A stretch of DNA of 64,000 nt from an archaeon (GTDB taxonomy: Archaea > Micrarchaeota > Micrarchaeia > Anstonellales > Bilamarchaeaceae), in contig JAGVNI010000014.1 in the NCBI GenBank assembly GCA_020053355.1, forward strand, positions 1 through 64,000. The letters run 5' to 3'. Position 1 is the stretch's first letter. The number at the start of each line of letters is the position of its first letter. Position numbers and translations under genes: made by a program. The notes beneath the pieces are model-generated. The model saw only the letters and a program-made list of their open reading frames with translations, was not told the DNA's origin and did not search any database. Below are positions 1-1,143 of this stretch, one piece after another.

Positions 1-1
1 A

Positions 2-145
2 AAGACGGGCTTATGGTTACAGGGATTTGGAGTATTTCAGGCTGAAAATCTTGCACAGTTGTGGGTGGAGGTCATCCTAAAGTTGGAGAAGAGCCAAAAA
101 CATATTGTTCCAAATATAGGTTATAAGTGGAAAATTGTGGTTTGA
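2..145 (+). CDS. Possible 3' end of an unidentified gene (partial)
   Basis: The second frame is open from the left edge to a TGA at 143-145 (47 codons). The residues look protein-like but match no family I recognise. The stretch is AT-richer than the genes that follow and contains the TATA-like box proposed for the aromatic leader, so it may equally be noncoding. The missing upstream sequence would decide. Confidence 0.2.
   Translation, partial: KTGLWLQGFGVFQAENLAQLWVEVILKLEKSQKHIVPNIGYKWKIVV
119..127 (+). promoter_or_regulatory. TATA-like box for the aromatic leader transcript
   Basis: A TTATAA core at 121-126 lies with its centre about 28 nt before ATG 152 and about 22 nt before ATG 146. 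That is the archaeal TATA-to-start distance, so transcription could begin at or next to the leader ATG (leaderless). The same spacing is seen before many genes in this window. Promoter strength and the true start site are inferred. Confidence 0.4.
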
Positions 146-235
146 ATGACGATGGCTAAAGGATGCGACCCGACGTGGGGCTATTCTTTCGGTTTCTTTA
201 GCTTTGGCTATCGCCCTCAGGAGAACCACGAATAA
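146..235 (+). CDS. Aromatic-residue-rich leader peptide of the aromatic amino-acid operon
   Basis: A 29-codon ORF from ATG 146 (or 27 codons from ATG 152) ends at TAA 233-235, 80-90 nt before the DAHP synthase start. Codons 176-211 read W-G-Y-S-F-G-F-F-S-F-G-Y: seven aromatic residues in twelve codons, covering all three end products of the pathway. Nothing else in the peptide suggests a folded protein. A T-rich run (237-248) follows the stop at once, and a long hairpin overlaps the last codons. By analogy with bacterial pheL, trpL and aro leaders it would sense charged aromatic tRNAs by ribosome stalling. That role is inference; the sequence itself is plain. I do not know of a described archaeal counterpart. 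Confidence 0.6.
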   Translation: MTMAKGCDPTWGYSFGFFSFGYRPQENHE

Positions 236-263
236 GCTTTTTTCTCTCGAACTGGTTTTCCTG
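218..263 (+). promoter_or_regulatory. Candidate attenuator hairpin with a T-run in the loop
   Basis: The left arm CAGGAGAACCA (218-228) pairs with TGGTTTTCCTG (253-263) over 11 positions, with one G-T wobble. CGA 229-231 can extend it with TCG 247-249. The loop holds the leader stop codon and the run CTTTTTTCTCTC (237-248). A ribosome at the leader stop would cover the left arm, while one stalled on the aromatic codons would leave it free. The stem could therefore hide the U-rich run, a termination signal in archaea, only when aromatic residues are scarce. The pairing is seen; the switch is inferred. Confidence 0.45.
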
Positions 264-287
264 ATTCGCTTGACATCCAGAGTAATT

Positions 288-315: not shown

Positions 316-324
316 ATGGTTGTG

Positions 325-1143
325 ATGGTTATGAAAAATCTGAAGCTGGCCGCATTGAACGGCAGCGGAAGGACGATAGTCCGCGTGGGCGACGTCAAGG
401 TAGGGCAGGGATTCGTGGTGATAGCCGGCCCCTGCAGCGTCGAGAGCGAGGAGCAGACGCTCGAGACCGCGCGCGCGGTCAAGGCGGCCGGGGCCGACAT
501 GCTCCGTGGCGGCGCCTTCAAGCCGCGCACCTCGCCATACGCGTTCCAGGGCCTGGGCCTGAAGGGCCTGAAAATCCTCGAGAAGGCCAGGGACGAGACC
601 GGGCTTCCGATAGTCACCGAGGTGCTCGACACACGCGACGTGTCATGGGTGGCCGAATACGCCGACGTGCTCCAGATTGGTGCAAGGAACATGCAGAACT
701 TCTCGCTCCTGAAGGAAGTGGGGAAGTCGAACAAGCCGGTGCTCCTCAAGCGCGGCATGTACTCCACCCTTGAAGAATGGCTAAACTGCGCCGAGTACAT
801 ATTGAACGAGGGGAATCCGGACGTCATACTTTGCGAACGCGGAATCAGGACGTTCGAGACCTACACCAGGAACACCCTTGATTTGAGCGCTGTTCCCTCC
901 GTGAAGGAGCTGACCCACCTGCCGATAATCACCGACCCGACGCACGGCACCGGGAGGATAAGCCTGATAACCCCCATGAGCCTCGCATCCGTCGCATGCG
1001 GCGCGGACGGCATAATCGTCGAGGTGCACAGGAACCCGGCCGAAGCGATGAGCGACAAGGAGCAGGCGATGACGCCGCCCCAGTTCTCGGAGATGCTGAT
1101 GAAGGTTCGCGCACTGCACAAGTGGATGGGGGGGATGAAATGA
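325..1143 (+). CDS. aroF: 3-deoxy-7-phosphoheptulonate (DAHP) synthase
   Basis: Condenses PEP and erythrose 4-phosphate, the first step of the shikimate pathway. The protein is 272 aa, the size of the short type I-beta / KdsA-like DAHP synthases of Bacillus, Thermotoga and Pyrococcus. It shows AGPCSVES at 34-41, the [13 protein letters not shown] segment, QIGARNMQN and the DPTHGTG metal/phosphate motif. There is no N-terminal ACT/FL domain and no fused chorismate mutase, so allosteric feedback is not evident; control may lie in the leader upstream. The start at ATG 325 is chosen from the GGAGG at 311-315. The stop overlaps the aroB start as ATGA. Confidence 0.93.

Follow-up and report, generated by a model that had tools for sequence, protein, structure and literature searches.

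The window analysed here, the first 64 kb of contig C2 in the 1.59 Mb genome of a Micrarchaeota archaeon, carries near its start an operon for the synthesis of aromatic amino acids. By profile annotation the operon comprises nine genes, extending from 316 to ~9278, which encode DAHP synthase, aroB, aroD, an aroE-aroK fusion, aroA, aroC, CM-prephenate dehydratase, prephenate dehydrogenase and an aminotransferase. Translation of the first gene, aroF, probably starts at ATG 331, as it does in relatives, and the 275 aa product matches DAHP synthase models only. Since the enzyme seems to be without an added regulatory domain, control at the level of expression makes sense.

Upstream of aroF lies a 29-codon ORF, the window translation of which is MTMAKGCDPTWGYSFGFFSFGYRPQENHE. 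Its codons at 176-211 read W G Y S F G F F S F G Y, such that seven of twelve are aromatic, and its TAA stop codon (233-235) is followed by a run of six U at 238-243. The last codons of the ORF enter a hairpin, here termed P2, in which CAGGAGAACCA (218-228) pairs with TGGTTTTCCTG (253-263); the pairing is extendable to 217/264 and encloses a 24-nt loop containing the U-run. The aromatic ORF, the U-run after its stop, the hairpin over its last codons and the position of all three ahead of DAHP synthase had been recognised in the initial annotation, and each was recovered in our analysis. Taken on a single sequence the odds against chance are only moderate: an ORF with at least 7 of 12 aromatic codons arose in 18 of 5000 dinucleotide shuffles of 1-315 (~0.4%), and among the 577 short ORFs of the whole window two, the leader and one other, reach 7 aromatic codons of 12. 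Alone, the case is only suggestive; the decisive evidence comes from comparison with relatives.

The initial annotation had suggested aligning the region 1-325 with that of relatives. Of this region, 1-95 is not native leader but the end of an ISL3-like insertion sequence (IS): the same sequence also starts contigs C3, C15 and C18, its Pfam match to DDE_Tnp_ISL3 is weak (E 0.0057, short of the cut-off), and the inverted repeat TGGCTCTTCTCC stands at the end of contig C13, directly after trpA. The element thus sits between trpA and the leader, and C13, which carries the trp operon, was formerly joined to C2. The sequence before insertion, reconstructed as TTTAAAAACAT, is the TATA-like box of the leader promoter, now split by the IS; in relatives TTTATAAA or TTTAAAAA is found about 42-57 nt before the leader ATG. 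Because the box is split, the aro operon of this particular strain may be driven by an altered promoter; in the relatives L006 and L010 the promoter is intact. The IS in the promoter had been missed by the initial annotation, as had the pairing P1 and the possible pairing of GTGGTTT considered below.

Table 1. Coordinates of the features at the aro leader locus (positions within the window)
Feature	Position	Strand	Remark
Right end of ISL3-like insertion sequence: transposase 3' end and terminal repeat GGAGAAGAGCC	1..95	+	Outside the attenuator; interrupts its promoter
8-bp target duplication AAAAACAT	96..103	+	Also found ahead of the IS end where contig C13 terminates
GTGGTTT immediately preceding the leader start (region 0)	137..143	+	Resembles an SD sequence and/or may pair alternatively with the P2 5' arm
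Aromatic leader peptide ORF	146..235	+	Start at 146 or 152
P1 5' arm (region 1) GATGGCTAAAG	151..161	+	Pairs with 202-212
P1 3' arm (region 2) CTTTGGCTATC, conserved codons SFGY	202..212	+	
P2 5' arm (region 3)	217..228	+	Overlaps the last leader codons
Leader stop codon	233..235	+	A ribosome here would cover the P2 5' arm (footprint geometry)
U6 tract in the loop of P2, a candidate signal for archaeal termination	238..243	+	T-runs enriched between stop and P2 3' arm, 32 loci
P2 3' arm (region 4) TGGTTTTCCTGA	253..264	+	Itself U-rich
DAHP synthase (aroF, core domain only), first operon gene	316..1143	+	TIGR01361, 405 bits

Conservation of the leader in the Micrarchaeota

Across the phylum, an aroF-like gene is present in 52 of 301 Micrarchaeota genomes, and in 33 of these 52, belonging to ten families, it is preceded by an aromatic-rich ORF; 18 genomes carry the gene without a leader. 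One of the 33 (G069) contributes only the tail of a leader at a contig edge, so that full ORFs number 32. A further locus (G048/L025) was excluded from the counts, being probably a contaminant contig, with a leader and terminator of bacterial type and an AroF that groups with Bacillota. The leaders are not tied to one enzyme, but precede several divergent DAHP synthase types. Among the 18 close loci, the window included, 17 have an ORF upstream of aroF that ends in an aromatic block, examples being FFAFFSFSYRYQENHE, NFFYYFSFSYRYQENHK, NWNYFFGFYSFSFDY, WNYFFGFFSFSYAY and VFYFFSFSFWY.

That the signal resides at the level of translation, and is not a by-product of T-richness, follows from the reading frame: over the last 15 codons of the 32 full ORFs the mean number of aromatic codons is 7.3 in frame as against 0.8 and 1.7 in the other two frames. 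Insertions and deletions between close relatives preserve the frame, aromatic residues interchange with one another (Y/F, W/F), the codons themselves vary (TTT/TTC), and an S-F-S/G-Y core is nearly invariant across the leaders. With the same ORF criterion and threshold, 13 of 16 regions upstream of aroF score positive and, as a control, 2 of 25 upstream of trpE. Three loci among the most distant (L024, L125 and L127) have a clear ORF but no clear hairpins.

Some individual loci depart from this arrangement. In G019 (L036/L144) the leader stands farther upstream, and the ~420 nt between P2 and aroF hold an inserted array of short inverted repeats. In the leaderless L012 (G030) and L137 (G191) the sequences GTGGTTTGAAAAATG and GTGGTTGAAATG, respectively, lie directly at aroF, as if the leader had been lost and what remained of its 5' end joined to aroF. 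The core motif recurs at other sites in relatives, but these copies are background matches unaccompanied by aromatic leaders.

RNA pairings around the leader

The local fold of P2 in the window has an energy of -18.9 kcal/mol (z -3.24, equalled by 1 of 200 shuffles), whereas that of the longer stretch 146-315 is unexceptional (z -1.27); over the loci the mean z is -2.37 at P2 as compared with -0.50 in a control segment. In nearly all loci the hairpin spans the stop codon of the leader or follows it directly. When P2 was aligned over 19 loci, 86.5% of the cells were paired, a value that falls to 47-62% on sliding the partner by one to three columns, and changes on both sides were found in 8 of 12 pairs against 3.2 in shuffles, none of 500 being as high. 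In fixed windows, selected without regard to fit, the hairpin's own arms pair better than swapped arms (p<1e-4), a result which holds after correction for composition, this corrected swap test covering 6 of the 10 pairings. The permutation tests ignore kinship, which is partly accounted for by the slid-partner control and by swaps limited to other families. On this comparative evidence we conclude that P2 is maintained by compensatory changes. Conservation of the aromatic block and of the stem, on which the initial annotation had beforehand staked its proposal, is accordingly found for both elements, the former in 33 of 52 genomes and the latter in the 8 of 12 pairs with changes on both sides. 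No Rfam leader or riboswitch scores above the gathering threshold in the window.

A second pairing, P1, connects the beginning of the ORF with the conserved SF(S/G)Y codons, and here too matched arms exceed swapped ones (p<1e-4). The core of its 3' arm, AGCTTTRGCTWT, occurs once in the genome, at 202-212. A possible third pairing (0:3) would involve the GTGGTTT element just ahead of the leader and AACCAC (224-229) in the 5' arm of P2. GTGGTT is present in 13 of 32 leaders as against none of the 125 regions upstream of long ORFs in the window, and a role for GTGGTTT as a general Shine-Dalgarno sequence was rejected, since it is absent before other genes of the window. Counted jointly, P1 and 0:3 have 21 cells with changes on both sides compared with 7.8 in shuffles (0 of 500), and in many loci the two together make one long hairpin that closes the leader start. 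The matched-versus-swapped test for 0:3 gives p 0.0001-0.002; since an unplanned control (1:5) scored p 0.0003, we regard 0:3 as a third pairing, exclusive of P2, as plausible only.

The 1:5 signal, between the start of the ORF and the stretch after P2, was unexpected over the 32 loci. A pairing of the aromatic region with that same stretch (2:5), suggested by several single folds, is unsupported (p 0.63). In close relatives (L006-L022) a conserved A-rich element, roughly TTAGWGTWATTRATAWAAA, occupies the place that corresponds to 275-296 in the window, and the pairing test gives no explanation for it; repeats of TAGTGTAA/AGATGTA, similar to this element, stand before the leader start. Folding of the single strand favours P2-type structures over the alternative in 22 of 24 loci, and since the P2 type is already favoured to this extent, kinetics must matter for any switch between the two.

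Ribosome position and the fate of the transcript

How, then, could the position of a ribosome on the leader be linked to the expression of the operon? From bacterial toeprints the ribosome extends over 18 nt before and ~12 nt after the first base of the A site, a footprint that for archaea is inferred. With this footprint assumed, a ribosome that has reached the stop would hide 85% of the P2 5' arm on average, and at least half of it in 22 of 24 loci, whereas one at the first or middle aromatic codons would hide 0% (n=24). The coverage from the stop is retained even though the stop has shifted by ~20 nt relative to P2 in the course of evolution. We hold it very probable that the ORF is a cis-acting leader, which by virtue of its aromatic codons controls the aro operon through ribosome position.

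The comparison also brings out an enrichment of T-runs. Over 32 loci the longest run averages 5.2 nt between the stop and the end of P2, compared with 3.0 in a stretch of the same length beyond it and 3.7 ahead of the ATG, although the place and length of the tract vary and it is weak in some loci (e.g. L017, L020 and L129). Archaeal terminators usually consist of 4-7 consecutive U and do not require a hairpin (PMC8716108), a length that both the U6 of the window and the mean of the 32 loci fit. The termination factor FttA binds RNA rich in U and cleaves it upstream of the polymerase (PMC11616081), and termination at U-tracts with FttA is known both at 3' ends and inside operons (PMC10450193). 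FttA/aCPSF1 is encoded in the same genome (816 bits). A scan of 1-600 for the bacterial arrangement of a hairpin and subsequent U-tract found none, the T-runs lying inside P2 and not after it.

We propose that translation of the W/Y/F-rich leader by a ribosome goes on while RNA polymerase advances ahead of it. With aromatic aminoacyl-tRNA plentiful, the ribosome would reach the stop and cover the 5' arm of P2, which would be blocked, and the U-runs of its loop and 3' arm would then stay single-stranded and allow termination, either intrinsic or via FttA/aCPSF1. With aromatic aminoacyl-tRNA in short supply, the ribosome would wait at the aromatic codons 30-60 nt upstream, where it would break P1 and free the P2 5' arm; P2 would form, the U-rich stretch would be tied up and transcription would read through into aroF, P2 being in effect an antiterminator. 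Without a ribosome, P1 and the pairing of the P2 5' arm with GTGGTTT would separate the arms of P2 and close off the start of the leader. We consider it fairly likely, judging from the sequences compared, that the system is a ribosome-mediated transcriptional attenuator of this kind, with archaeal U-tract termination and P2 as antiterminator. The initial annotation had likewise supposed that stalling lets P2 mask the U-tract. Comparison bears out its structural premises, namely the in-frame aromatic leader, P2, the placement of the stop and the enrichment of U-runs, and adds P1 to them, whereas we infer that stalling is the sensor, that transcription terminates at the U-tract and that P2 acts as antiterminator, and likewise the role of the third pairing and the sign of the output (termination or read-through). 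The antiterminator sign is preferred because it is the only one that yields sensible feedback given the position of the stop.

The switch might alternatively act not on transcription but on translation, by governing the access of ribosomes to aroF or their reinitiation after the leader. Consistent with this, an SD-like sequence directly adjoins the P2 3' arm at L027, a single distant locus, and a tiny ORF intervenes between P2 and aroF in some loci. Such small downstream ORFs are, however, unconserved, the 2:5 pairing fails its test, as noted above, and the P2 3' arm usually lies ~25-80 nt before aroF, clear of the ribosome-binding site, so that we judge translational attenuation unlikely. Somewhat more doubtful is the opposite logic, by which P2, with its A-run, short G-C core and U-run in the 3' arm, would itself be terminator-like and be prevented by the region 0 pairing or by a ribosome. 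The U4-U6 run of the 3' arm does complement the A-run in a manner that recalls bacterial terminators with A/U flanks; but 1-600 contains no terminator-like site, the T-runs after P2 are short, archaeal terminators can dispense with a hairpin (PMC8716108), and, with amino acids abundant, P2 would be prevented by the ribosome standing at the stop, so that read-through would fall in the wrong condition.

The near-invariance of the S-F-S/G-Y core raises the question of an arrest peptide, a nascent aromatic chain that would stall the ribosome in response to a free aromatic amino acid instead of codon starvation. Against this, the core lies anywhere from 0 to ~10 codons or more from the stop and has variable neighbouring residues, in contrast to arrest peptides, and the P1 pairing explains the conservation of the core at the nucleotide level; we hold this to be highly improbable. 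Least probable of all is that ORF and hairpins are incidental and that a promoter downstream of P2 or a DNA-binding regulator is in control, as might be read into the ATATAAAAAT about 25-45 nt before aroF in the window, the conserved A-rich element after P2 in close relatives, and the TrpY-family gene and palindrome at the trp operon of these genomes, since a function is needed to account for the conservation and covariation that leader, P1 and P2 show across families, the trpE-upstream control lags at 2/25 against 13/16 for aroF at the same threshold, and many leader ATGs have a TATA-like box 42-57 nt upstream.

Relation to known control systems

The attenuator favoured here resembles the trpL, pheL and hisL type of E. 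coli in having a short ORF rich in codons for the product, with putative alternative pairings set relative to its stop, upstream of a biosynthetic operon. It differs in its archaeal host and in the lack of a hairpin followed by a U-tract, one of the defining features of the bacterial kind, the would-be termination signal being a single-stranded U-tract; moreover, the distal hairpin has the stop within or next to its 5' arm and would hence be an antiterminator. A search of the genome for hisG, with a view to a corresponding His leader, did not find the gene.

Closer counterparts precede bacterial aroF genes near to this one, in Spirochaetia UBA5550 (L039) and at Monoglobus and Lachnospiraceae loci. 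In L039, the DAHP synthase of which is 74% identical to that of the window, the leader SFSFGYFYFYF is closely similar to micrarchaeal leaders such as FSFGYFYW, and by eye a small P1-like pairing extends over the same codons. The spirochaetal leader is followed by a strong rho-independent terminator (AAAGACCC..GGGTCTTTTTTTTTT), whereas none follows in 1-600 of the window. Aromatic leader ORFs accompany many bacterial genes for type I-beta DAHP synthases (L039, L044, L074, L082, L086-L090, L098 and L099), and rho-independent terminators follow those inspected (e.g. L039, L044 and L099). The micrarchaeal AroF clade (f1, f5 and f11) includes one Syntrophus and one Thermoplasmata sequence and groups near Spirochaetota. 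It is possible that a bacterial aroF was captured together with its attenuator and that the terminator was then replaced; convergence is possible also, since leaders precede other micrarchaeal DAHP synthase types as well.

With the known U-tract/FttA termination of archaea the locus shares the runs of 4-7 U and the encoded factor, the difference being the proposed gating by a ribosome. An archaeal precedent for the control of aromatic amino-acid synthesis, that of trp operons by TrpY, relies on a repressor acting at the DNA level on a palindrome and has no leader peptide. The trp operon of the genome studied here has no aromatic leader and instead a divergent TrpY-family gene adjoining trpE. 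Upstream of trpE in L145-L164 such a divergent gene is accompanied by a TGTAYATTTTTRTACA palindrome beside the TATA box; in L155 the regulator, at 906-1499 on the minus strand, scores 166.8 bits, just under the cut-off of 180. The two branches thus seem to differ, trp being under control at the DNA level and aro under that of an RNA leader.

The initial annotation had remarked that ribosome-mediated attenuation is scarcely documented in archaea, and this agrees with the literature: full-text searches of open-licence papers returned no report of archaeal attenuation, and a paper of 2021 states that neither attenuation nor antitermination is known in archaea (PMC8448881). With slightly less assurance than for the attenuator as such, we incline to the view that the aro leader may be the first archaeal ribosome-mediated transcription attenuator, in which P2 would mask a U-tract from RNA polymerase or FttA. 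It would be widespread in the Micrarchaeota, and may descend from an attenuator of a bacterial aroF in which the hairpin terminator gave way to the archaeal signal. The locus is a compact DNA template and directly testable. If the proposal is true, the coupling of transcription and translation serves gene control in archaea, termination by FttA at U-tracts can be regulated, and the aro leader shows how a logic of bacterial style can be rebuilt with an archaeal terminator.
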